Assembly (NCBI GenBank): GCA_012839215.1
Contig: DUNV01000106.1
Location: 1-40,794, forward strand
Direction of reading: 5' to 3'
Origin: Bacillota bacterium
GTDB lineage: Bacteria > Bacillota > Dethiobacteria > DTU022 > UBA8154
Length of the DNA stretch: 40,794 bases
Under the pieces are notes generated by a model that did not search any database, had not been told where the DNA came from, and saw nothing but the letters and a program-made list of their open reading frames with translations. Shown one piece after another: positions 327-32,921 of the stretch. Every line of letters begins with the position of its first letter. Positions within the stretch are counted from its first letter, which is position 1. A program made the translations under genes and the position numbers.

Positions 327-2219
327 ATGATTATTGGAACAGCGGGGCATGTCGATCATGGTAAAACTGAACTTACGAAGGCCCTTACCGGGATAGATAC
401 TGATCGTCTCCACCAGGAAAAAGAACGGGGTATATCTATAGATATTGGTTTTGCCCCACTGCATTTTTCTGAAGGCCGCGTTGCAGGGCTGATCGATGTT
501 CCCGGGCATGAAAAATTTATCCACAATATGCTGGCGGGTATCGGAGGTATCGATCTTGTCCTCATGGTTATCGATGCCCTAGAAGGGGTGATGCCCCAGA
601 CGCGGGAACACCTCGATATTTTGGAACTTTTGGGGGTTAAAAAAGGGATCGTTGCCATTACCAAAAAAGACCTGGCCGATAGCGAATGGTTGGAGATGGT
701 TATAGAAGAGGTTAAGGATCATCTAAAGGGGACTTTCCTGTCTGAGGCTCCTATTCACACTGTTTCTGCCTTTACTGGCGAGGGAGTGCCCGAGCTTAAA
801 TCTTTCCTGGAACAAATGTATGAGACCTTTTCCGGTAAGGATACAGAAGCACCCCTGCGCGTGCCCATCGATCGATCCTTTACGATTTCCGGTTTTGGGA
901 CTGTTGTTACCGGCACCCTGCTCAGCGGAAAGGTGAGTGTTGGCCAGTCTGTGGAGGTACTGCCACCCGGGAAAGTTTGCCGGGTCAGGGGTATCCAGGT
1001 TTTCGGCAAAAATGTAGAACAGGCTTTTGCCGGGCAAAGGGTGGCGGTCAATCTGGCCGGGTTGGATAAAAAAGAGGTTCAAAGGGGTAGCGTACTCGCA
1101 GTTCCCGGATATTTTCATCTGACACGTTTCCTTGATGCCAGGCTAAAACTCCTTCCTTCAGCGCCAAAACCCCTCGTTAATATGGCCCCTGTTCATTTTT
1201 ACCTCGGCACGGCCAGACTGGTGGCCCGTCTGTTGCTACTGGGATCTGACGTTCTGGAACCGGGAAAGGAAGGCCTGGTGCAATGCCGGCTCGTAAAGCC
1301 CCTTGTGGCGAGCCGCGGGGATCAGTTTATCATCCGTTCTTATTCCCCGATGGTCACAATCGGGGGCGGGACTGTTCTTGATGAGCGTCCGCCGAGGCAT
1401 AAACGCTTTAAAAAAGAGGTTTTGGAGACCCTGCGGGAGCTGGGTAAAGAAGATTTACTGCCCTTCATCATGCAAAAGATGAATTCTGCCGGCGGAGCAA
1501 CCCTTCAGGAACTGGCAAAGCTTGCCAAATTGGGTGAGGAGCCCCTGCAATTGCTTTTACAGAAGGCCCTACGGCAAAAAAAGATTGTCCTGCTGGGGGA
1601 TTTATACGTTACAACCACAACAATAGAAGAATGGACCAAAAATATTCTAGAAGGACTCAGCCTCTACCATCGGCAAAAACCCTTATCACCTGGTATTTCC
1701 AAAGCCCATTTGGGGGGGCTGATAACCCGCCAGGTTACCAGCCGGGCCTATGATGCTCTTCTTGCCCACCTTGGGGAAAAGGATCTCATCAGGGTTTCTG
1801 GCGAAATGGTTTCCCTTTTCGATTTTTCACCAAGGCCAACGGGGATGCAGGAACAAAAATTAATCCAGATTAGGACATTTTTCCAGCAAAGAGGGCTGGG
1901 TACTGTCAATCTCCGGGAGTGGGAGGAAAAGTTGCAATTACCACCCGGAGAAATGGAAAATCTACTGGATTATCTCGCCCGCCAGGGTGCCATTACCAAA
2001 ATAACCGAGGACTTTTATCTGGATGGCAGGATTTACCAACAGTGTTTGGAAATATTGAAGGATTACTTTCAGGATCACCGGGCGATTACCTTGGGGCAGT
2101 ACCGCGACCTGATTAAAGGATCACGTAAAATTGCCCAAACCCTGCTTGAACATTTTGATGGATGCAAATATACCAAAAGGGTGGGGGATGAAAGAGTTGT
2201 ATGGAAGATGCCGCTTTGA
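327..2219 (+). CDS. selB: Selenocysteine-specific translation elongation factor
   Basis: MIIGTAGHVDHGKTELTKALTGIDTDRLHQEKERGISIDIGFA GTPase start; 630 aa with C-terminal winged-helix region; adjacent to selA. Confidence 0.97.
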   Translation: MIIGTAGHVDHGKTELTKALTGIDTDRLHQEKERGISIDIGFAPLHFSEGRVAGLIDVPGHEKFIHNMLAGIGGIDLVLMVIDALEGVMPQTREHLDILELLGVKKGIVAITKKDLADSEWLEMVIEEVKDHLKGTFLSEAPIHTVSAFTGEGVPELKSFLEQMYETFSGKDTEAPLRVPIDRSFTISGFGTVVTGTLLSGKVSVGQSVEVLPPGKVCRVRGIQVFGKNVEQAFAGQRVAVNLAGLDKKEVQRGSVLAVPGYFHLTRFLDARLKLLPSAPKPLVNMAPVHFYLGTARLVARLLLLGSDVLEPGKEGLVQCRLVKPLVASRGDQFIIRSYSPMVTIGGGTVLDERPPRHKRFKKEVLETLRELGKEDLLPFIMQKMNSAGGATLQELAKLAKLGEEPLQLLLQKALRQKKIVLLGDLYVTTTTIEEWTKNILEGLSLYHRQKPLSPGISKAHLGGLITRQVTSRAYDALLAHLGEKDLIRVSGEMVSLFDFSPRPTGMQEQKLIQIRTFFQQRGLGTVNLREWEEKLQLPPGEMENLLDYLARQGAITKITEDFYLDGRIYQQCLEILKDYFQDHRAITLGQYRDLIKGSRKIAQTLLEHFDGCKYTKRVGDERVVWKMPL

Positions 2220-2497: not shown

Positions 2498-2526
2498 TTG
2501 ACAGTCCTTTCTTTTAAATGAATAAT
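2498..2526 (+). promoter_or_regulatory. Sigma-A-like promoter candidate for the Hdr/Etf/Flx operon
   Basis: TTGACA (2498-2503), 17 nt, AATAAT (2521-2526); implies a leader of about 400 nt. Confidence 0.4.
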
Positions 2527-2937
2527 CTGTAAAATTAGTTATAAATTATATTAACTTTTACGTTAAATGTTATTTTTTCTTAAAATATGTCACCATTTCG
2601 CCAACACTAACCTTAGAAACAAAACCTATAACAGTTAAGCGGTAGATCTATATAAACACAACTTAAAAAAGTGCAACAATATTTTAATCTTAAAAAGAAG
2701 AAGGATTTTTAATTTAAAGCGTCGAAAACAACTCTAAGAGAGATTTTTGTGAATTCCTTTGCCCATGGGGGAAAAGCAGGTTAAAAAAATGGAAGGGAGG
2801 AAAAGACTTTCAAGACTTGTTTTTAGTTTTTGCTGTACCATTTTTTACTTAGGTAAAGTGTGAGCAGGAAACCCGGGGTAGAGCTTCGGAACTCCCGGAA
2901 CATGTTTCCGGGCGTGATGTTAATCCTGAAGTGAGGT

Positions 2938-4092
2938 ATGAAGATGAATACAGATGCAAATACAGTAATCGAGAGTTTCATTCAGAAATATGATCTGCTT
3001 GGGTGTATTCAGTGTGGAAGATGTACCGGGGGGTGCCCGGTAACAATTCGGACCGGCTTAAACCCACGCCGAATTGTTTATGATTCCCGGGATGAGGAAA
3101 TGCTGGAGGAACTATCTAATTTAACGGAAATTTGGGATTGTACCACTTGCAATACCTGCGCGGTAAGGTGTCCCAAAGGCCTTAAACCCGTTGATGTGCT
3201 TGTTGGCCTGAGGAACATGCTTGTAGAGGAAGGTGTTATCCAGCCGACGGTAAGGGATGCCCTGGAAAGTATTTTCCGGGAAGGCAATCCCTGGGATAAG
3301 CCACGGGCAACCCGTTGTGATTGGATGGAGGGGCTGGACGTTAGAATTGTTGAGCCCGGTGAAGAGGTGGAAAACCTTATTTTTGTCTGTTGTACTATTG
3401 CCTACGATCCCAAGGTTCAAGTGATCGCCCAAAACTTTGTGAAACTTCTCAATAAGGCAGGGGTTGATTACGGTTTTATTGGGGAGGATGAATCCTGCTG
3501 TGCCAGCGAGGCCCATAACATGGGCGAAGAGGGCCTTTTTGAAATGATGATCGAGGACAACACCGAGCTTTTAAACAGCTATGCTGCAAAACGCCTGGTG
3601 ACTCTTTCCCCGCACTGTTATTCGACTTTTAAGAATCAGTATCCTGATCTCAAGGCAGAGGTTATTCACTATTCTCACCTGTTAAAAGAACTCCTCGAAG
3701 AAAAGAAAATAGCTTTTGGTAAAGAATGTTCAGATAAAGTTATTTATCATGATCCCTGTTATCTCGGAAAACAGAACGATGTTTATGATGAGCCGCGCTA
3801 TGTCTTAAAACAGATCAAAGGGGCAGAAATTCTAGAATTTGAACGCAGTCGGGAACGCAGCCTCTGCTGCGAAGGCGGCGGTGGGAAAATGTGGGTCGAG
3901 GGAACAGAAACAAAGGAAGAACGCCTGGCAGAAACCCGTGTTAAAGATGCCAGGGAGCAGGGGGCCACTGTCTTGGCTGTTGCCTGTCCGTTTTGTGTTT
4001 TAACCTTGGATGACGCCCTCAAGGCCAAAGGTTTTGAAGAAGAGATGCGCGTCGCAGATGTTTTGGAATTTTTAGGGCCATTTATAGAGTAA
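2938..4092 (+). CDS. Soluble HdrD-like (HdrC-HdrB fused) Fe-S oxidoreductase with two 4Fe-4S motifs and two CCG domains
   Basis: CIQCGRCTGGCP and CTTCNTCAVRCP followed by two cysteine-rich CCG segments (…VCCTIAYDP…ESCCASEAHNMG…, …HDPCYLGKQN…CCEGGGGKMW…CPFC); no N-terminal membrane domain. Confidence 0.88.
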   Translation: MKMNTDANTVIESFIQKYDLLGCIQCGRCTGGCPVTIRTGLNPRRIVYDSRDEEMLEELSNLTEIWDCTTCNTCAVRCPKGLKPVDVLVGLRNMLVEEGVIQPTVRDALESIFREGNPWDKPRATRCDWMEGLDVRIVEPGEEVENLIFVCCTIAYDPKVQVIAQNFVKLLNKAGVDYGFIGEDESCCASEAHNMGEEGLFEMMIEDNTELLNSYAAKRLVTLSPHCYSTFKNQYPDLKAEVIHYSHLLKELLEEKKIAFGKECSDKVIYHDPCYLGKQNDVYDEPRYVLKQIKGAEILEFERSRERSLCCEGGGGKMWVEGTETKEERLAETRVKDAREQGATVLAVACPFCVLTLDDALKAKGFEEEMRVADVLEFLGPFIE

Positions 4093-4200
4093 TTGTTTTT
4101 TAAAACAGGTAATATGTAGAAAACCCGGGTTGTCTCTGGTGGAAAAGGATGGCGAATTGGAAAAATTATTTTATTTAGTTGTAGGAGGTGGGAGTCTTAA

Positions 4201-4989
4201 ATGAATATATTTGTTTGCATTAAGCGGGTTCCCGATACATCCGAGGCGGAAGTAAAGGTGGACGCAAACGGCAAGGATGTGGATAGCAGCAAGTTTTCCT
4301 TCGATATCAATGATGCAGACAACTATGCCGTCGAGGAAGCTATTCTTATAAAGGAGAAAGTAGGAGGTAACGTCAAAGTTGTCAGCATGGGTCCCAAGGA
4401 TGGCGATGTGATGATTCGCATGGCCCTGGCCAAGGGCGGCGATAGTGCTATTCGTATCGAGGATCCACGTATTAACACTGTTGACCCACTTCAGGTGGCC
4501 AAAGTTTTGGCTGCTGCTGTGAAGGGGCAGGATTTTGACTTGGTGTTAACGGGATGTATGGCTGAAGACGATGGCAATATGGCCGTTGGAGTAGCCCTGG
4601 CTGAAACCCTGGGTGTTCCCCACGCAGCCATGGTAAAAAAGGTCGAGGTCGATGAGGGGAAAGTGAAAGTCTACCGCGAGCTTGAAGGCGGGCTCTCAGA
4701 AGTTGTGGAGCTGGCCCTGCCTGCGGTCCTGACCATCCAGACAGGTATTAACGAGCCTCGCTATGCTCCAATCAGGGGCATACGTATGGCCCAGAAAAAA
4801 GAATTAAAGGTTCTTAATCTGGATGATCTGGGGCTGGCTGAGGATGATGTCAGCGAAGGCTCATCCCTGGTTGAACTTAAAAACCTGTATATCCCCGAAG
4901 TTGTTTCCCATGCGGAAATTATCGAAGGGGAACCGGAGGAAAAAGCAGAAATTTTAGCTGACAAATTGGTGAAAGGAGGGTTATTGTAA
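4201..4989 (+). CDS. etfB: Electron transfer flavoprotein beta subunit
   Basis: MNIFVCIKRVPDTSEAEVKVD…LVLTGCMAEDDGNMAVG…INEPRYAPIRGIRMAQKKELKV; SD AGGAGGTGGG. Confidence 0.95.
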   Translation: MNIFVCIKRVPDTSEAEVKVDANGKDVDSSKFSFDINDADNYAVEEAILIKEKVGGNVKVVSMGPKDGDVMIRMALAKGGDSAIRIEDPRINTVDPLQVAKVLAAAVKGQDFDLVLTGCMAEDDGNMAVGVALAETLGVPHAAMVKKVEVDEGKVKVYRELEGGLSEVVELALPAVLTIQTGINEPRYAPIRGIRMAQKKELKVLNLDDLGLAEDDVSEGSSLVELKNLYIPEVVSHAEIIEGEPEEKAEILADKLVKGGLL

Positions 4990-4991
4990 TT

Positions 4992-5966
4992 ATGGGTACT
5001 ATACTTGTTTTAGCTGAACATCGTCAGGGTTCATTGCGGGATGTTTCTTTGGAGATGCTGACCAAAGCCTCGCAAGTGGCAGGGCAAAATGGGGGAGAAG
5101 TGGTAGCCCTCCTGTTGGGCAGCGGTGTGGATGCCTTGGCAGACAAGCTTGCTGGTTACAGTGACAAGGTTCTTTATGTGGATAACCCTCTTTTTGCAGA
5201 CTACAATGCAGAAAAATACCAGCTGGCCTTGGTAGAACTGGTTAAACAGTACAATCCCGAGCTTTTTATGATTGGCCATACAACCCAGGGGGTGGATCTG
5301 GCCCCGGCACTGGCTGTAGAGATGGGCATGCCTTTTGTCTCCGATGTGATCGAAATTGAACTTGCTGATGGCAAGCTACAGCCGGTACGTCAATACTATC
5401 AGGGTAAAGTTAACGCCAATTTTGCCTTTAAAGGTGAACCCCCCTATCTGGTTAGTTTTAGGGAGGCCACCTTAGAGGTTCCCGAACCTTCTAAACAGGG
5501 TTCCATAGAAAAGATTGAATCTCCACTAAAAGAGGATATTGAATATCGCAGATTTATTGAATATGTCGAAGCTGAAGTTGGCGATGTCGATATTACCCAA
5601 TCAGAAATTCTGGTAGCAATAGGGCGCGGTGTTCGAGAAGACAAAAACATGCCTATGATCCAGGAGCTTGCCAGCGCCATCAAGGCAGATCTTTGTGGTT
5701 CCCGCGCAGCTACGGATGCGGGTTGGCTTGAGCATGATCGCCAGGTCGGCACCTCAGGAAAAACTGTTAAACCAAAGCTGTATATCGCTATCGGTATTTC
5801 TGGAGCTTTCCAACACCTTGCCGGGATGAAGGGAGCAAAGACTATTGTAGCTATTAACAAGGATCCGGATGCTCCCATTTTTTCCGTGGCAGACTTTGCC
5901 ATTATCGACGATCTCTTTAAAGTTGTCCCCAAACTAACGGAAAAGCTCAAAGAGTTGGTGGGTTAA
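4992..5966 (+). CDS. etfA: Electron transfer flavoprotein alpha subunit
   Basis: C-terminal FAD-binding segment GSRAATDAGWLEHDRQVGTSGKTVKPKLYIAIGISGAFQHLAGMKGAKTIVAINKDPDAPIF. Confidence 0.96.
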   Translation: MGTILVLAEHRQGSLRDVSLEMLTKASQVAGQNGGEVVALLLGSGVDALADKLAGYSDKVLYVDNPLFADYNAEKYQLALVELVKQYNPELFMIGHTTQGVDLAPALAVEMGMPFVSDVIEIELADGKLQPVRQYYQGKVNANFAFKGEPPYLVSFREATLEVPEPSKQGSIEKIESPLKEDIEYRRFIEYVEAEVGDVDITQSEILVAIGRGVREDKNMPMIQELASAIKADLCGSRAATDAGWLEHDRQVGTSGKTVKPKLYIAIGISGAFQHLAGMKGAKTIVAINKDPDAPIFSVADFAIIDDLFKVVPKLTEKLKELVG

Positions 5967-6029
5967 TTTAGAACGCCTGAGAATAGATAGTTGATGCAGT
6001 TAATCTTTGTTGGAGGATGAAAGAGCGCA

Positions 6030-8030
6030 ATGAACAACAAGCCAAGAATTGGTGTGTATGTCTGTCACTGCGGGGCGAATATTGCCAAGACGGTAGATGT
6101 GGAGGCAGTTTCCGAGTTTGCTTCCCACCTCCCCTATGTCAAAGTGGCGCGCAACTATGCCTATATGTGTTCCGATCCAGGGCAACTTTTAATCAGGGAA
6201 GACATAAAAAACGAGGGACTGACCCGTGTTGTAGTGGCCTCTTGTTCCCCCCGCATGCATGAGCTGACCTTTCGCAAGACGCTTGCGGCGGCAGGGCTGA
6301 ACCCCTACTATCTGGAGATGGCCAATATCCGGGAACATTGTTCCTGGGTGCATACGGACAGGGATGAGGCTACAGCTAAAGCCAAAAGATTGGTTTATTC
6401 TGCTGTGGCCAAGGCCCGTCTATTGGAACCCCTGACGGAAAAAGAGGTTGAAGTTGAACCCTCCGCCCTGATTGTTGGAGGGGGGATTGCTGGAATACAA
6501 GCGGCGCTAGACATTGCCGCAGCAGGTTTTAAAGTCTACATGGTAGAAAAGACTACCTCTGTTGGTGGGAAAATGTCCCAGTTGGATAAAACCTTCCCCA
6601 CCCTGGACTGTTCTGCCTGTATTCTGACGCCAAAAATGGTCGATGTGGCCAGCCACCCCAATATCGAGTTGATGACCTACTCCAAGGTGGAGGATATTTC
6701 CGGCTATGTGGGCAATTTTGATGTCAAAGTACGCAAAAAGGCCCGTTATGTGGATATGGATAAATGTACCGGGTGCGGGGCCTGTGCCGAGGAGTGCCGA
6801 TTACGTGGCACGATCCCCAATGATTATGATATGGGCCTGGGCAAGAGGGGAGCCATCTACCTTCCCTTCCCGCAGGCTGTCCCGGCAAAATATACCATTG
6901 ATCCCGATCGTTGTTTGATGCTTACCAGGGGAAAATGCGGTAAGGGACCCAAGTGTGTGGAGGCCTGCGCGGTGGGGGCCGTTAATTTTGAACAAGAAGA
7001 TGAAATTGTCGAGTTTAAGGTAGGCACTGTTATTATTGCCACAGGTTATGAGATCTTCGATGCCTCCAAAAAGCCGGAATATGGCTATGGCCAGTATCCC
7101 AATGTTATCAACGGGCTGGAACTGGAGCGTCTGGTTGCTGCTTCCGGGCCTACCGGCGGGGAGATCGTTATCGGCAAAGGGGACAAGGCCATGGTTCCCA
7201 AGGAAGTGGCCTTCATTAGCTGCGTTGGTTCCCGGGATGACAGCGTGGACAAACCTTACTGTTCCCGGGTTTGCTGCATGTACTCCGCCAAGCTTGCCCA
7301 CCTGATTTTGGAAAAACTTCCCGAGGCCAATGTCAGGATCTACTATATGGATGTCCGTGCCTTTGGCAAGGGATATGAAGAATTTTACGATCGTGTTCGC
7401 CGGGAGGGTGTCCACTATATCCGGGGTAACCCTTCCGAAATATTTAAGCGCGGCGATAAGCTGGTGGTTAAGGCAGAAGATACATTGGCAGGAAGGCCCC
7501 TGGAAGATGAGGTGGACCTGGTGGTTCTGGCCGTTGGCCTGGAACCGCGCCAGGATGCCCGGGAGATCATTGATATTCTCAAACTCTCCCAATCTGCAGA
7601 CGGCTTTTACATGGAGGCCCACCCCAAACTGGCACCCGTTGATACCGCCACCGATGGAGTATATCTGGCCGGCTGTGCCCAAGGTCCCAAGGACATCCCC
7701 GACACTGTAGCCCAGGCTAAAGGTGCTGCCGCCTCAGCGCTGATCCTGCTCTCCAGCGGGCAGGTAAAGGTGCAGGCACAAATTTCCATTGTAGATGAAT
7801 CAACCTGTCGCGGCTGTGGGTTCTGCGTGGAAATCTGCCCCTATGGTGCCATTGAATTAGTAGAAATCAATCGCATGGGGAATATGGCCCAGGTTGCCAG
7901 GGTAAACGAAGCTCTATGCAAGGGCTGTGGTGCCTGCGCGGCCGGCTGCCTGTCCGGTTCCATTCAGCAGAGATCATTCAAGGACCAACAGATCCTACCG
8001 CAAATTGCAGTATTGGGGGCTATGAAATGA
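6030..8030 (+). CDS. hdrA: HdrA-like heterodisulfide reductase subunit A (FAD, multiple 4Fe-4S)
   Basis: IGVYVCHCGANIA…, VGGGIAGIQAALDIA…, TLDCSACILTPKM, YCSRVCCMYSAKLA, C-terminal ferredoxin motifs; uninterrupted frame. Confidence 0.95.
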   Translation: MNNKPRIGVYVCHCGANIAKTVDVEAVSEFASHLPYVKVARNYAYMCSDPGQLLIREDIKNEGLTRVVVASCSPRMHELTFRKTLAAAGLNPYYLEMANIREHCSWVHTDRDEATAKAKRLVYSAVAKARLLEPLTEKEVEVEPSALIVGGGIAGIQAALDIAAAGFKVYMVEKTTSVGGKMSQLDKTFPTLDCSACILTPKMVDVASHPNIELMTYSKVEDISGYVGNFDVKVRKKARYVDMDKCTGCGACAEECRLRGTIPNDYDMGLGKRGAIYLPFPQAVPAKYTIDPDRCLMLTRGKCGKGPKCVEACAVGAVNFEQEDEIVEFKVGTVIIATGYEIFDASKKPEYGYGQYPNVINGLELERLVAASGPTGGEIVIGKGDKAMVPKEVAFISCVGSRDDSVDKPYCSRVCCMYSAKLAHLILEKLPEANVRIYYMDVRAFGKGYEEFYDRVRREGVHYIRGNPSEIFKRGDKLVVKAEDTLAGRPLEDEVDLVVLAVGLEPRQDAREIIDILKLSQSADGFYMEAHPKLAPVDTATDGVYLAGCAQGPKDIPDTVAQAKGAAASALILLSSGQVKVQAQISIVDESTCRGCGFCVEICPYGAIELVEINRMGNMAQVARVNEALCKGCGACAAGCLSGSIQQRSFKDQQILPQIAVLGAMK

Positions 8031-8458
8031 GCGAACAATTTGAACCCAATGTGGTAGCATTTTTGTGTAACTGGTGTACCTATGCCGGTGCTGACCTTGC
8101 TGGCACGAGCAGGATGCATTATGAACCCAACGTCAATATCATTAGAGTGATGTGCAGCGGTAGGGTTAACCCTCTTTTTGTGGTGAATGCCCTACAGCAG
8201 GGTGCCGATAGCGTCCTGGTTTCCGGTTGCCACCCGGGGGATTGCCATTATATGGAAGGCAATTATTATGCCCGGCGTCGGTTTACTTTGATGAAGGAAC
8301 TCCTCGATTATGTGGGCGTTGACCCCCAAAGGTTTCATATGAGTTGGGTTTCAGCCTCGGAGGGCAACAAATGGAAAGATGTCGTGGGCGAAGTAGTTAA
8401 GGAAACAAAGGAAGTAGGCTCCTTTGAACAATTTCAGAGGGATAAGATTAACTGGTAA
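8027..8458 (+). CDS. FlxD/MvhD-like hydrogenase iron-sulfur subunit
   Basis: MSEQFEPNVVAFLCNWCTYAGADLAG…VMCSGRVNP…GADSVLVSGCHPGDCHYMEGNYYARRR; ATGA overlap with the hdrA stop. Confidence 0.9.
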   Translation: MSEQFEPNVVAFLCNWCTYAGADLAGTSRMHYEPNVNIIRVMCSGRVNPLFVVNALQQGADSVLVSGCHPGDCHYMEGNYYARRRFTLMKELLDYVGVDPQRFHMSWVSASEGNKWKDVVGEVVKETKEVGSFEQFQRDKINW

Positions 8459-8474
8459 GGAGGAGGAGAAATAG

Positions 8475-9458
8475 TTGGCAGATCTGGAAAAACTCATAAC
8501 TGTAGCCAAAGAAACTGTCTCACGGGATGATGTCAAACATTTGATCGGCTGGAGACAAGGAACGTACGGCTTCAGGGTATCTCCGCACTTTATCACAGAA
8601 CCGGAGGAAGCAGATAAGCTCATCTTCTCGCCTCTTTGCAACAGTAATCTGGTTAACTATCTGACCTGGGTTGAAAAGCTTCCCGTCCCCCGGGGGCAGG
8701 AGGCCGATACACGTAAAGTTGCCCTGATGGTCAAAGGTTGTGATAGTCGTGCGGTGGTTCAGCTATTGATTGAACAGGGAATTAAAAGGGAAGACGTTAT
8801 TGTCATTGGGTGCCCCTGTGAAGGGGTTATAGATTTAGCCAAGGCCGAAGAAATGTTTCCTAATGTGCTGGAGCAGGTTGAAGCCCGTTGGGATGGTGAG
8901 AAGATCGTTTTTAAACTGCCCGATGGTGAAAAAGCGGTGCCCCGGGAGGATGTTTTGGCGGACAAGTGCCTGAGATGCCGCTATCCCAATCCTGTTCTCT
9001 CGGATGTTCTTCTTGGGGACGAAGTGAAAACCGAGGGCAATGATGACTATGCCGATGTAGATGGAATGGAGGAAAAAACCACCAAAGAGCGCTGGGCTTT
9101 CTGGGAAGAGCAGTTTTCCTCCTGTATCCGCTGTTATTCCTGTCGAAATGTTTGTCCTATGTGTTATTGTGAAGACTGCATTCTTGACAGGCTAAACCCA
9201 ACGTGGATTAACCGTTCCAATAACATTTCCGAGAATACAGCTTTCCACCTTGCACGTGCTTTTCACTTGGCGGGACGTTGTATTGAATGCGGGGAATGTG
9301 AAAGGGTTTGTCCGGTCAATATTCCTATCATGACACTGAACAGGAAGCTAACAAAAGAAGTTCGAGAAAAATTTGACTATGATCCGGGGACAGATCCTGA
9401 TTCCAAGCCGCTTCAGGCCAGCTACCTTCCAAATGATCAGGAAAACTTCATTCTCTAG
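8475..9458 (+). CDS. FlxC-like 4Fe-4S protein
   Basis: DKCLRCRYPNP, CIRCYSCRNVCPMCYCEDC and CIECGECERVCPVNIP motifs; TTG start after GGAGGAGGAG; gene order. Confidence 0.75.
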   Translation: MADLEKLITVAKETVSRDDVKHLIGWRQGTYGFRVSPHFITEPEEADKLIFSPLCNSNLVNYLTWVEKLPVPRGQEADTRKVALMVKGCDSRAVVQLLIEQGIKREDVIVIGCPCEGVIDLAKAEEMFPNVLEQVEARWDGEKIVFKLPDGEKAVPREDVLADKCLRCRYPNPVLSDVLLGDEVKTEGNDDYADVDGMEEKTTKERWAFWEEQFSSCIRCYSCRNVCPMCYCEDCILDRLNPTWINRSNNISENTAFHLARAFHLAGRCIECGECERVCPVNIPIMTLNRKLTKEVREKFDYDPGTDPDSKPLQASYLPNDQENFIL

Positions 9459-9469
9459 AGGTGGGTGCT

Positions 9470-10483
9470 ATGGATAATATGAAATTACCGAAGGAAAAGG
9501 TAGGAGACTTTCTTGCCAAGCTGGGGAAGGAAAAATTTCGTGTTCCCCGGGAAATTGGCGGGCGCAGTGAGTTTGCCCCTCCAAATGGAGAAAGCAATGT
9601 GGACTTTAGCCTTCCCAATACCACGGTACCGCTGAAAAGCCTCTTTTATCCGCAGACAGAAACGCTGTACCGTTTTGAGGTTGGGGATACCGTCCCGAAA
9701 ACCTCTGTAGTTGCAGAGGAAATGATCATCATGGGGGTTCGCCCCTGTGATGCCAGGGCCCTGACTATTGTAGACAAGCTCTTTTCCTGGGATCCTGAAG
9801 ATCCCTATTACCTGGCCAAAAGGGAAAAAGCAACCTTAATCGGACTCGCCTGCCAGGAACCACGTGTAAACTGTTTTTGTACTTCCCTGGGAGGCGGCCC
9901 GGCATCCACTGAAGGGCTGGACATCTTAATGACAGATCTGGGTGACAGTTATTTATTCCAGGTTTTGACGGAAAAAGGGGAAAAGATCTGTCAGGAGGCC
10001 GGGGACATACTTGTAAAATCCGAAGACAACGATGTGCAGGCAGCAGAAAAAGCTCACAACGATGCTGCCTCCAAGATCGTCAGGGGAATTGAGGCAGATA
10101 GTATTCCTGAAAAATTGCCACAGCTTTGGGAAAGTGACATCTGGAAAAAAACTGCTGATCCCTGTCTAGGCTGTGGAACCTGCACTTTCCTTTGTCCAAC
10201 CTGCCATTGTTTTGACATCCAGGATGAAATTGAAGGCATTGAAGGACGAAGGTATAGGGTGTGGGATTCCTGTATGTTTACAGAATACACGCTCCACACT
10301 TCCGGGCATAACCCCCGCCCAACCGGCCGGGAGAGGACTCGCAACAGGATTAATCACAAGTATTCCTACTATGTTGAAAAATTCGAAGTGATCGCCTGTG
10401 TTGGCTGTGGACGGTGTATTAATCTGTGCCCGGTGAACATCGATATTCTTAATATCTTATCGCAGGTTAAGGAGGCACTATGA
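9470..10483 (+). CDS. FlxB/HydB-like 4Fe-4S dicluster protein
   Basis: CLGCGTCTFLCPTCHCFD and CVGCGRCINLCPVNIDI; start chosen at MDNMKLPKEKV; gene order. Confidence 0.75.
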   Translation: MDNMKLPKEKVGDFLAKLGKEKFRVPREIGGRSEFAPPNGESNVDFSLPNTTVPLKSLFYPQTETLYRFEVGDTVPKTSVVAEEMIIMGVRPCDARALTIVDKLFSWDPEDPYYLAKREKATLIGLACQEPRVNCFCTSLGGGPASTEGLDILMTDLGDSYLFQVLTEKGEKICQEAGDILVKSEDNDVQAAEKAHNDAASKIVRGIEADSIPEKLPQLWESDIWKKTADPCLGCGTCTFLCPTCHCFDIQDEIEGIEGRRYRVWDSCMFTEYTLHTSGHNPRPTGRERTRNRINHKYSYYVEKFEVIACVGCGRCINLCPVNIDILNILSQVKEAL

Positions 10484-11322
10484 AAGAGAATCCTTATCAA
10501 CCGTATATAGCCACTATCGAAGATACCTGGTATGAAACTGTGGGCGATCGGCCTGTCAAAACTTTCAAAGTGACCTTGGATGACCCTGAGGTACGGAAAA
10601 ACTGGAGCCACAGGCCCGGACAGTGTGCCATGGTTGGACGGCTGGGTATCGGGGAGAGCATGTTCTGTATTTCCTGCTCTCCGACTGAGGGAGAATTCTT
10701 GCGTTTTTCGATTTTGCGTGCCGGTAAAAACACCCAGGGCCTCCACGAACAAGAGGCTGGCGATAAAATTACCGTGCGCGGACCTTACGGCAACTACTTT
10801 CCCCTGGAGGACTGGAAGGGGAAGCATATCCTGACAATCGGCGGTGGCATTGGGCAGGCCCCCTTGCGCCCCATTGTGGAATATGTCAAGGCTAACCTCG
10901 ATCAATATGCCGGGTTGACCACTATTTATGGTGCCCGCACTTCGGGGGATCTTTGCTTCAAGGATGAGTTTGCAGAAATGGCCAGGCGTGACGATATAAA
11001 CTGTTGCCTGACTATCGATATTGAAGAAGAGGGTTGGGAATACAATGTAGGATTTGTACCGACCATGCTAATGGAAGTTAATCCCTCTCCAGACAATACG
11101 ATCGCCATCACCTGTGGACCTCCAATCATGATCAGATTTGTGTTGGAGAACCTCAAAAAACTCAACTTCGAGGATGATCAAATCTACACAACCCTGGAAA
11201 ACAGGATGAAGTGCGGTTTTGGCAAATGCGGTCGCTGCAATGCCGGGAATCTTTATGTTTGCAAGGATGGACCAGTCTTTTCCTATGCAACATTAAAAGC
11301 TGTTCCCGAAGCATTTGCCTAG
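10480..11322 (+). CDS. FlxA/HydG-like FAD/NAD(P)-binding oxidoreductase
   Basis: PGQCAMVGRLGIGESMFCISCSP, GGGIGQAPLRPIVEYV, CGPPIMIRFVLENL, MKCGFGKCGRCNAGNLYVCKDGPVF (2Fe-2S); ATGA overlap with upstream gene. Confidence 0.88.
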   Translation: MKENPYQPYIATIEDTWYETVGDRPVKTFKVTLDDPEVRKNWSHRPGQCAMVGRLGIGESMFCISCSPTEGEFLRFSILRAGKNTQGLHEQEAGDKITVRGPYGNYFPLEDWKGKHILTIGGGIGQAPLRPIVEYVKANLDQYAGLTTIYGARTSGDLCFKDEFAEMARRDDINCCLTIDIEEEGWEYNVGFVPTMLMEVNPSPDNTIAITCGPPIMIRFVLENLKKLNFEDDQIYTTLENRMKCGFGKCGRCNAGNLYVCKDGPVFSYATLKAVPEAFA

Positions 11323-11327
11323 GAAGC

Positions 11328-11379
11328 AGTGCATCACGGGGACGGTTCTCCCGTTGCAATAGGAGAACCGTCCCTATGC
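11328..11379. repeat. Palindromic repeat, short copy (unit 1)
   Basis: GCATCACGGGGACGGTTCTCC (11331-11351) pairs with GGAGAACCGTCCCTATGC (11362-11379). Confidence 0.9.
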
Positions 11380-11392
11380 TTTATCGAAGTTT

Positions 11393-11426
11393 GGCAGACA
11401 GCAGACTAAAAGCCGTCTGCCTTTTT
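11393..11426 (+). terminator. Intrinsic terminator after the FlxA-like gene
   Basis: GGCAGAC (11393-11399) / GTCTGCC (11415-11421) followed by TTTTT. Confidence 0.8.
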
Positions 11427-11436
11427 GCATCACGAG

Positions 11437-11522
11437 TGCAACACGGGGACGGTTCTCCTGTTGCAGTGCCCTGGAAGAAAAAATAGCGAAGAATGCAACA
11501 GAAGAACCGTCCCCGTGTTGCA
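11437..11522. repeat. Palindromic repeat, full copy (unit 2)
   Basis: TGCAACACGGGGACGGTTCTCCTGTTGCA - loop - TGCAACAGAAGAACCGTCCCCGTGTTGCA. Confidence 0.95.
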
Positions 11523-11567
11523 TTACAGTACCGGCGATTGGGATAACATAAATTTAATTGGATAACC

Positions 11568-11630: not shown

Positions 11631-12113
11631 ATGGACGAGATAATGGATCATTATGGTCAGGTTATCGAGCTGGCTGGGGATGATAGGGCCCTGGTCAGGG
11701 TTCGCAGGAATTCCGCCTGTGGTAGCTGTGGGCGTTGTGGCGGCTTTTTTGGTGACCCGGAAAAAAATCATGAAATGCTTGTGGAAGTTAACAACCCCAT
11801 TGGTGCCAAGGCCGGCCAATTGGTTCGGCTGGAGGCCAAGGCCAGTGAAATGCTTATGGCGGCCGTTCTTCTCTATTTTGTTCCACTGATGGGCCTGCTC
11901 CTAGGACTTGTCGTTAGTCGAAACTGGGCATTGAGGGTTTTGCCAACGATAAACGCAGATCTATTTGGAATTGGCATCGGATTGTTTACTATGGTGCTGG
12001 TATTTTTTGTTTTACGCCTTGCTGAAAGGCGTATTACCAGTGGTAAACGTTTCAAGGCAGTTATCACCGCTATTATCCGGGAAGAGGAAATCCCGGAACA
12101 TGTCATTCCCTAG
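11631..12113 (+). CDS. RseC/MucC-family (SoxR-reducing system) membrane protein
   Basis: G.V.….ALVRVRRNSACGSCGRCGGFF Cys motif followed by two hydrophobic segments; 160 aa. Confidence 0.85.
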   Translation: MDEIMDHYGQVIELAGDDRALVRVRRNSACGSCGRCGGFFGDPEKNHEMLVEVNNPIGAKAGQLVRLEAKASEMLMAAVLLYFVPLMGLLLGLVVSRNWALRVLPTINADLFGIGIGLFTMVLVFFVLRLAERRITSGKRFKAVITAIIREEEIPEHVIP

Positions 12114-12200
12114 TGCATCACGGGGACGGTTCTCCTGTTGCAGTGCCCTAGAAGAAAAAATAGCGAAGAATGCAACAGAAGAACCGTCCCCGTGATGCAC
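12112..12200. repeat. Palindromic repeat, full copy (unit A)
   Basis: TGCATCACGGGGACGGTTCTCCTGTTGCA…TGCAACAGAAGAACCGTCCCCGTGATGCAC; starts inside the rseC stop codon. Confidence 0.95.
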
Positions 12201-12272
12201 TGTTGCAGTGCCCTGGAAGAAAAAATAGCGAAGAATGCAACAGAAGAACCGTCCCCGTGATGCAGTGATGCA
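12201..12272. repeat. Truncated palindromic repeat (unit B, loop plus right arm)
   Basis: TGTTGCAGTGCCCTGGAAGAAAAAATAGCGAAGAATGCAACAGAAGAACCGTCCCCGTGATGCA; left GGGGACGGTTCT arm missing. Confidence 0.9.
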
Positions 12273-12336
12273 CAGCGAGTGCAACAGAAGAACCGTCCCC
12301 GTGATGCACAACAGAAGAACCGTCCCCGTGATGCAC
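12273..12336. repeat. Two tandem right-arm half-copies (units C and D)
   Basis: AACAGAAGAACCGTCCCCGTGATGCAC occurs twice in tandem. Confidence 0.9.
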
Positions 12337-12353
12337 AGCCTGAGTTTTCACTG

Positions 12354-12419: not shown

Positions 12420-12610
12420 GGGGTGAGGTAGAGGAGCGGTTGGTAATGAGTAAACACGCCTAAATGCCGGGAGGATAGCGTGTCGAAAGGTGCCGCCGCC
12501 GAAGCTTTTAGCCCTTCCCGGGGGACTAAAGGCTGGTTTGCCAGTGAACAACTGGCTGACTGTCATCTGGTAAAACCCTTTTACCAGATGGAGCGCTATC
12601 TCACCAAGGG
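12420..12610 (+). ncRNA. Lysine riboswitch (L box)
   Basis: GGTGAGGTAGAGGAGC…AGTA…GGAGGATAGCGTGTCGAAAGGTGCCGCCGCCGAAG…GGCTGGTTTGCCAGTGAACAACTGGCTGACTGTCATCTGG…GGAGCGCTATCTCACC; P1 arms pair; located before lysA. Confidence 0.93.
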
Positions 12611-32519: not shown

Positions 32520-32708
32520 GCGAAGATTAAGAGCTACCCTGCTGTATACGTGCAGCCTTAAAAGTTTTGAGCTAACACTGATCAAAAGGGTTCCCAACTT
32601 TATGTGCCGCATAGACGCCCCGCCAGAGGGGACCTATAGAGCATGTAAGAGGGTACCCACCTGGGGAGAGCAGTTCAAAACGGCGGGCCCACGGTATGGT
32701 GGGGTATT
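32520..32708 (+). ncRNA. ssrS: 6S RNA
   Basis: GTGCAGCCTTAAAAGTTTTGAGCTAACACTGATCAAAAGGGTTCCC…GAGCATGTAAGAGGGTACCCACCTGGGGAGAGCAGTTC…; closing stem CTACCC-TGCT-GTATACGTG with CACGGTAT-GGTG-GGGTA; own promoter; located after aspS. Confidence 0.8.
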
Positions 32709-32921
32709 TTTTTGTTTTTCCCACACTTTTTTTTTGTAAAGGAAAGATGATATAATGTAGGCATGTTTTTCTGTGCAAACTCCCTTTGCGAAATGTTCCC
32801 AGGATAGTTGCAGTGTATCAAATATTGAATTAAATGCGGTAAAACTAGGGTTTTACGATGTTATCTATTTAAAGTTAAGCAAAGACGGGGCATCTGCTGG
32901 AGGGCTCCGGGGGGTGAGGGT

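Follow-up and report, generated by a model that had tools for sequence, protein, structure and literature searches.

An eight-gene operon of Dethiobacteria joins an EtfD-like protein and an electron transfer flavoprotein to HdrA and FlxABCD and may encode a soluble ETF dehydrogenase

This study concerns an eight-gene redox operon on contig DUNV01000106.1 (assembly GCA_012839215.1) of a Bacillota bacterium of the Dethiobacteria. The whole stretch of 40,794 nucleotides (nt), here called the window, was analyzed; it is contig C79 of a 2.06-Mb genome that is 97% complete. The operon combines an HdrD-like iron-sulfur protein, an electron transfer flavoprotein (ETF, encoded by etfBA), HdrA and an FlxABCD set. 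The features of the locus are as follows.

2498..2526, + strand: promoter-like TTGACA-17-AATAAT (11 of 12 positions), approximately 410 nt 5' of the first start codon; consensus match only
2938..4092, + strand: HdrD-like (soluble EtfD-like) Fe-S protein, 384 amino acids (aa), with two ferredoxin-type 4Fe-4S sites and the domains CCG1 and CCG2
4201..4989, + strand: EtfB, 262 aa; nearest solved relative is the trimethylamine dehydrogenase ETF (W3A1)
4992..5966, + strand: EtfA, 324 aa, with the ETF_alpha FAD domain
6030..8030, + strand: HdrA, 666 aa, with FAD domain, inserted ferredoxin domain and C-terminal 2x4Fe-4S domain
8027..8458, + strand: FlxD/MvhD-type [2Fe-2S] subunit, 143 aa, FlpD/MvhD family
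8475..9458, + strand: FlxC-like 4Fe-4S protein, 327 aa, TTG start
9461..10483, + strand: FlxB-like (sulfhydrogenase beta/AsrA-like) 4Fe-4S protein, 340 aa, GTG start
10480..11322, + strand: FlxA-like FAD/NAD(P)-binding subunit with [2Fe-2S] site, 280 aa
11393..11426, + strand: intrinsic-terminator-like hairpin with T-run, 3' of flxA, GGCAGAC-AGCAGACTAAAAGCC-GTCTGCC-TTTTT; the terminator tool match spans 11401-11420

The initial annotation of the window had described eight same-strand genes, and they were confirmed at these positions, with family names that agree with Pfam and NCBIfam (CCG, 4Fe-4S, ETF, HdrA and FlpD/MvhD domains). The ATGA overlaps between hdrA and flxD (8027-8030) and between flxB and flxA (10480-10483) were both found, as was the hairpin with a T-run behind flxA, starting at 11393. 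Little weight is placed on the promoter and terminator scans, which taken together did not clearly exceed shuffled sequence; for the whole region, terminator-like matches showed no excess (7 versus 11.7 in shuffles). No promoter or terminator match was found inside the widest gap of the operon, the 108 bp between the hdrD-like gene and etfB. The operon leader of approximately 410 nt (window positions 2498-2938) holds a GC-rich hairpin at approximately 2875-2912, and no Rfam family was matched in it. By hydropathy, no convincing transmembrane segment was found in any of the eight proteins, and two control genes of the window did score. Two stretches were borderline, one in the CCG core and one in the HdrA FAD domain.

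Relatives were sought in a named genome collection, in which they are Dethiobacteria-type Bacillota metagenome-assembled genomes (MAGs) from digesters, soda lakes and groundwater. The HdrD-like protein was present at E < 1e-60 in 57 of 60 genomes of the same taxonomic order. A phylum-wide search at E <= 1e-100, a threshold at which distant forms would be missed, found it only in this order. Carriers in Actinomycetota and Chloroflexota came from the scan of the named genomes, of which the best 80 of 165 candidates were kept. The gene order hdrD-like, etfB, etfA, hdrA, flxD, flxC, flxB, flxA, all on one strand, is identical at 50 fully readable loci, which correspond, apart from the window, to 48 distinct contigs (L151 is a duplicate of L053, and L152 of L037). 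Twelve of these loci are from Actinomycetota, for example, Geothermincola and Solincola. In the home order and in Actinomycetota, an incomplete order was always explained by a contig end, and EtfBA was in the unit at every locus long enough to show it. Intergenic gaps have medians between -4 and 60 bp, and the pairwise distances of all eight proteins correlate with one another (r 0.75-0.94). The gene order is far beyond chance. Its recurrence at 50 loci in two phyla rules out a one-off arrangement of a single genome as well as an assembly or strand artefact, and together with the co-variation it argues for one machine. In nearly all relatives from the same taxonomic order, but not in Actinomycetota, the gene immediately upstream of the operon is selB, for the selenocysteine elongation factor (window positions 327-2219). 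Two Chloroflexota loci (L149 and L153) show hdrD-like, etfBA and an HdrA that lacks the inserted ferredoxin domain, and no Flx genes follow; at L149, the contig ends soon after hdrA, hence there is no Flx to read. At L153 (11198-16995), a second, divergent etfBA pair comes after hdrD-like-etfBA-HdrA.

The key question was what the HdrD-like protein does. The proposal that HdrB and HdrC are replaced by one soluble fused protein was supported: the 384-aa protein is an HdrC-HdrB-type fusion. Its best PDB sequence match is EtfD of Mycobacterium smegmatis (9ojn, 181 bits, residues 64-377). HdrC matches its N-terminus at 57 bits, and HdrB was not found among its solved-structure sequence matches. 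When a predicted model (mean pLDDT 76; the CCG half above 90 in most blocks) was used for a fold search, EtfD came first (E 5.6e-20), followed by LutA and then HdrB (from 3e-7). In EtfD, the cubane ligands are Cys301, 304, 307, 422 and 311, 412, 415, 418; the linear cluster D1 is bound by Cys503, 538, 581 and 584, and the noncubane cluster D2 by Cys637, 672, 673, 709 and 712 together with His583 (PMC13083937). We mapped these ligands onto the HdrD-like protein through the PDB sequence alignment. Two cubane sites and two CCG domains are present in EtfD order. Every cubane ligand has a counterpart in the ferredoxin-type sites (C23, C26, C29, C33 and C68, C71, C74, C78), and the D2 ligands are complete in CCG2 (C274, C310, C311, C350, C353 and H226). 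CCG1 contains C152, C187, C188 and C227, with S224. H226 belongs to an SPHC motif that is present in 68 of 68 HdrD-like homologues. The EtfD-type membrane domain with heme b and the menaquinone site is absent from the 384-aa protein, in which hydropathy detects no transmembrane segment. Judged from sequence and predicted model, the protein appears to be a soluble ETF dehydrogenase attached to HdrA.

These ligands bear on the "disulfide-type site" of the initial annotation, which did not hold. A heterodisulfide-type site was rejected on the EtfD-type ligands: EtfD matches better than HdrB, CCG2 has the EtfD-type histidine, and CCG1 has Ser for Cys, so that the two open noncubane clusters with CxxC of the HdrABC type are not found in the protein. 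We therefore consider it unlikely that the operon encodes an NADH:ferredoxin:disulfide reductase of the Flx-Hdr type, with a small disulfide or a DsrC-like protein as the substrate of the HdrD-like protein and with EtfBA merely co-transcribed or a side donor. Such an enzyme would have a precedent in FlxABCD-HdrABC, for which reduction of a thiol-disulfide partner has been proposed (Ramos et al. 2015, as cited in PMC6687939), and the complete five-Cys noncubane set of CCG2 would suit it. However, Ser for the first Cys of CxxC in CCG1 and the EtfD-type His next to CCG2 are found in 68/68 homologues, while HdrB elsewhere in the same genome has the plain CxxC form (CAAC). The nearest solved relative is EtfD rather than HdrB, EtfBA is never missing at loci long enough to show it, and the genome has a separate HdrC-HdrB-HdrA-FlxD-FlxC set on another contig. 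This second, classical set lies at a contig end (L033, G000:C49); its hdrA and flxD look interrupted in the open reading frame list, perhaps because of frameshifts or recoded stops.

We then asked where flavin-based bifurcation or confurcation, which the initial annotation had considered possible, could sit. Bifurcating EtfB proteins are characterized by the motifs DGDTAQVGP, RXFXG and SPT (PMC9232219). These motifs for binding beta-FAD and NAD were missing in 66 of 66 operon EtfBs, and the closest solved EtfB relative is the trimethylamine dehydrogenase ETF (164 bits), with bifurcating ETFs at 88-114 bits among those named. A bifurcating role of EtfAB was thus rejected, and the operon ETF is probably a one-FAD, non-bifurcating carrier. 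Since EtfB lacks the motifs, any bifurcation should sit on HdrA. The alignment of HdrA with its counterpart in the HdrABC-MvhAGD structure spans the whole protein (5ODC, 823 bits). The flavin lysine in CCMYxxK is kept (K421, corresponding to K409 of 5ODC), and so are both ferredoxin domains, the inserted and the C-terminal one. By these features, HdrA should be the natural place for bifurcation, if any occurs. The idea in the initial annotation that soluble proteins connect NAD(H), ferredoxin and ETF was supported, with EtfBA in the unit of every relative and the NADH and ferredoxin features kept in HdrA and FlxABCD.

Where the electrons come from had been left open, as no acyl-CoA dehydrogenase is encoded in the window. 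This absence was confirmed, and the donor question is largely answered by the rest of the genome. The operon etfA is the sole ETF alpha gene, and two acyl-CoA dehydrogenase genes lie outside the window, neither beside etf genes. The first is in a run of thiolase, 3-hydroxyacyl-CoA dehydrogenase, acyl-CoA dehydrogenase and enoyl-CoA hydratase genes; the second adjoins an acyl-CoA carboxylase gene. Acyl-CoA dehydrogenases were found in 59 of 60 relatives. Exactly one ETF is present in 37 of the 60 genomes of the order, in which acyl-CoA dehydrogenases total 195 (sums by hand). All 14 carrier genomes tested from other phyla have acyl-CoA dehydrogenases, up to 42 per genome; the Actinomycetota carriers have 1-3 ETFs versus 11-42 acyl-CoA dehydrogenases. 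With positive controls matched, ETF-QO/FixX (PF05187) was absent in 59/60 genomes of the order and the NarI-type domain (PF02665), which served to indicate membrane EtfD-type modules, in 60/60. The four CCG proteins of the window's own genome (the HdrD-like protein, a Bam-like paralog, a GlcF-like protein and HdrB) were not seen with a membrane part. In genome G024 (97% complete), hdrD-like, ETF and acyl-CoA dehydrogenase are all missing together. Single-ETF genomes, the lack of ETF-QO and NarI modules and this joint loss form the pattern expected of a hub operon through which ETF is emptied. Most likely, the donors to the operon are acyl-CoA dehydrogenases encoded elsewhere and served by the genome's only ETF. 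The genome also has RnfC and FeFe-hydrogenase genes, so the ferredoxin and NAD pools have other links. RnfC and acyl-CoA dehydrogenase genes lie approximately 6-11 kb apart on the same contig in several relatives (G001:C31, G002:C61, G005:C34, G008:C186 and G009:C129).

A different donor was also weighed, namely, a particular 2-hydroxyacid or amine dehydrogenase (GlcD or trimethylamine dehydrogenase type) served by a single enzyme composed of the HdrD-like protein and EtfBA, with HdrA-Flx as the NADH outlet. EtfB is closest to the trimethylamine dehydrogenase ETF, GlcD/GlcF-type genes are located on contig C97 of the genome, and the EtfD homologue DgcB acts in dimethylglycine catabolism (PMC13083937). 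Nevertheless, we regard this donor as improbable: acyl-CoA dehydrogenases accompany few ETFs in 59/60 relatives and in 14/14 carriers of other phyla, G024, the one well-assembled genome to have lost the operon and ETF, lacks acyl-CoA dehydrogenases as well, and the GlcD genes have their own GlcF.

On balance, we think it likely that the operon encodes a soluble ETF:NAD+:ferredoxin oxidoreductase composed of two known modules, with HdrA as the branch point, fed by acyl-CoA dehydrogenases. EtfAB, as a non-bifurcating carrier, would collect electrons from the dehydrogenases encoded elsewhere. The HdrD-like protein would be an EtfD-type ETF dehydrogenase that lacks the membrane part, and reduced ETF would dock at its CCG clusters. 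Electrons would then pass the two cubanes of the HdrC-like N-terminus, which would contact HdrA at the place taken by HdrC in HdrABC; in that complex, the HdrC cubanes carry electrons in the opposite direction. The HdrA FAD would be the branch point, with the HdrA ferredoxin domains serving ferredoxin. At this flavin, electrons from ETF and ferredoxin would join and exit as NADH via FlxD, FlxC, FlxB and FlxA, giving the predicted net reaction ETFred + Fdred + 2 NAD+ <-> ETFox + Fdox + 2 NADH. Potentials in cells are approximately -10 mV for enoyl/acyl-CoA, -280 mV for NADH and -500 mV for ferredoxin. With these textbook values, the coupled reaction is near equilibrium, and either direction is possible: confurcation may operate during fatty or amino acid oxidation, and bifurcation when enoyl-CoA is the electron sink. 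Docking, complex formation, stoichiometry and direction are what we infer from the comparison.

Very improbable is an uncoupled shuttle, in which ETF electrons pass via the HdrD-like protein and HdrA straight to ferredoxin or NAD, or separate enzymes that share only a transcript: ETF-to-NAD+ transfer without coupling is strongly uphill, HdrA retains its flavin lysine and its two ferredoxin domains, and order and co-variation extend across two phyla. In its favor, HdrA relatives with lost domains are not all bifurcating, as in the Sporomusa-type methylenetetrahydrofolate reductase, whose HdrA lacks the inserted ferredoxin domain (PMC9430772).

Several points weigh against an oxidoreductase that couples ETF to NAD+ and ferredoxin. 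When tested against EtfD, only 3/4 D1 ligands are kept (C152, C187 and C227); S224 replaces Cys581, and C188, which is Hdr-type, replaces Thr539. The N-terminal half of the HdrD-like model is of low confidence. The Bam-like paralog of the same genome (contig C123) also has the SPHC histidine. This histidine is thus not ETF-specific, and it weighs more against an open disulfide site than for ETF. That EtfAB would form a complex with HdrA is suggested by gene order alone. The hub is not exclusive everywhere, since 20 of the 60 relatives gave more than one ETF call, although in at least one of these (G040) the calls come from one split gene. Finally, the ferredoxin branch is not universal: HdrA of Chloroflexota lacks the inserted ferredoxin domain, and no Flx genes are near the locus.

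Comparison with known systems places the operon between two families. It resembles FlxABCD-HdrABC of Desulfovibrio vulgaris and syntrophs (Ramos et al. 2015, as cited in PMC6687939) in having HdrA and four Flx proteins, in being soluble and in its NADH and ferredoxin ends; it differs in having an EtfD-like fusion for separate HdrB and HdrC, an ETF pair inside and a predicted high-potential partner that is ETF, not a disulfide. With EtfD, the mycobacterial ETF:menaquinone oxidoreductase (9OJN, PMC13083937), the HdrD-like protein shares two cubane and two CCG sites, the D2 ligands and the general electron wire. It lacks the five-helix heme/menaquinone membrane part and has another D1 Cys pattern, and its predicted electron acceptor is HdrA instead of heme b. 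A CCG protein encoded with EtfBA and tied to beta-oxidation is also known from HdrF3-EtfBA of Desulfobacterium autotrophicum (PMC2702500) and from the Fe-S oxidoreductase-EtfAB of Syntrophomonas-type syntrophs (PMC7082340), but these are membrane proteins that feed quinones, whereas the operon proteins are soluble and joined to HdrA-Flx. The bifurcating Ldh-EtfAB, Bcd-EtfAB, CarCDE and Fix/EtfABCX systems likewise join ETF, NADH and ferredoxin. They bifurcate at the EtfB beta-FAD, the binding motifs of which are missing in the operon EtfB, and the branch point would be HdrA instead.

In BamD-BamE of class II benzoyl-CoA reductase, an HdrD-like fusion also works with an HdrA-type flavoprotein. 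Unlike the operon, Bam modules have no ETF and no FlxABC, and contain a tungsten enzyme of the aldehyde ferredoxin oxidoreductase type and NuoEFG-like subunits. BamB of this enzyme type and BamC were not found beside the HdrD/HdrA pair in the window. A Bam-like cluster is present on contig C123 (L031, G000:C123:4000-22000), with two aldehyde ferredoxin oxidoreductase-type genes, a ferredoxin gene and an HdrD-like paralog (39% identical), as well as a large HdrA-like protein, an FlxD-like protein and NuoE/F/G-like subunits, adjoining a TRAP transporter.

The nearest printed remark concerns the Unc8 MAG (NPL-UPA2), in which etfAB lies beside hydB-hdrAC without HdrB; a joint function of Hdr and Etf is the authors' guess. 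That case is a partial set in one MAG, for which no EtfD-like assignment, Flx set or distribution is given (PMC6305446). In a 2018 list of twelve bifurcating enzymes with biochemical proof, no entry combines ETF with HdrA and Flx (PMC6085437). A Dethiobacteraceae digester MAG was described as a potential acetate oxidiser with beta-oxidation, and the matched passages of that paper do not mention the operon (PMC7334858). The initial annotation had named a common and already characterized gene order as the outcome that would count against it. The order is common, with 50 loci, but no biochemical description of the operon was found in the open-access literature, to which the search was confined, and an earlier description outside it is possible.

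Other elements of the window were also noted. Eight copies of an element of approximately 30 nt (GTGCATCACGGGGACGGTTCTCCTGTTGCA and variants) are located in both orientations at window positions 11327-11525 and 12106-12341, where they form long hairpins directly 3' of the operon and 3' of the next gene. A lysine riboswitch (12421-12606) precedes a diaminopimelate decarboxylase-like gene, and a 6S RNA is located at 32533-32709.

For anaerobes without ETF-QO, the disposal of electrons from acyl-CoA oxidation is an energetic puzzle, the usual answer to which is a membrane ETF dehydrogenase and quinones. The most likely reading of the operon is no longer a disulfide reductase to which an ETF has been added, but a soluble ETF dehydrogenase joined to HdrA-Flx. 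We lean slightly toward a broader view, according to which it represents a further class of ETF dehydrogenase, soluble, quinone-free and bifurcating or confurcating at HdrA, and would be the main or only exit for acyl-CoA electrons in Dethiobacteria-type Bacillota and several deep Actinomycetota lineages. If true, this class would stand beside ETF-QO, EtfD/FadF, Fix/EtfABCX and the bifurcating EtfAB-dehydrogenase complexes. The operon shows the exchangeability of EtfD-like and HdrA modules, and it offers a testable enzyme and a marker cassette for metagenomes. Its carriers belong to uncultured groups that are often found in digesters, in soda lakes and in hot or deep sediments. In these groups, it would provide a conserved soluble alternative to membrane ETF dehydrogenases, coupling acyl-CoA electron disposal to reduced ferredoxin.

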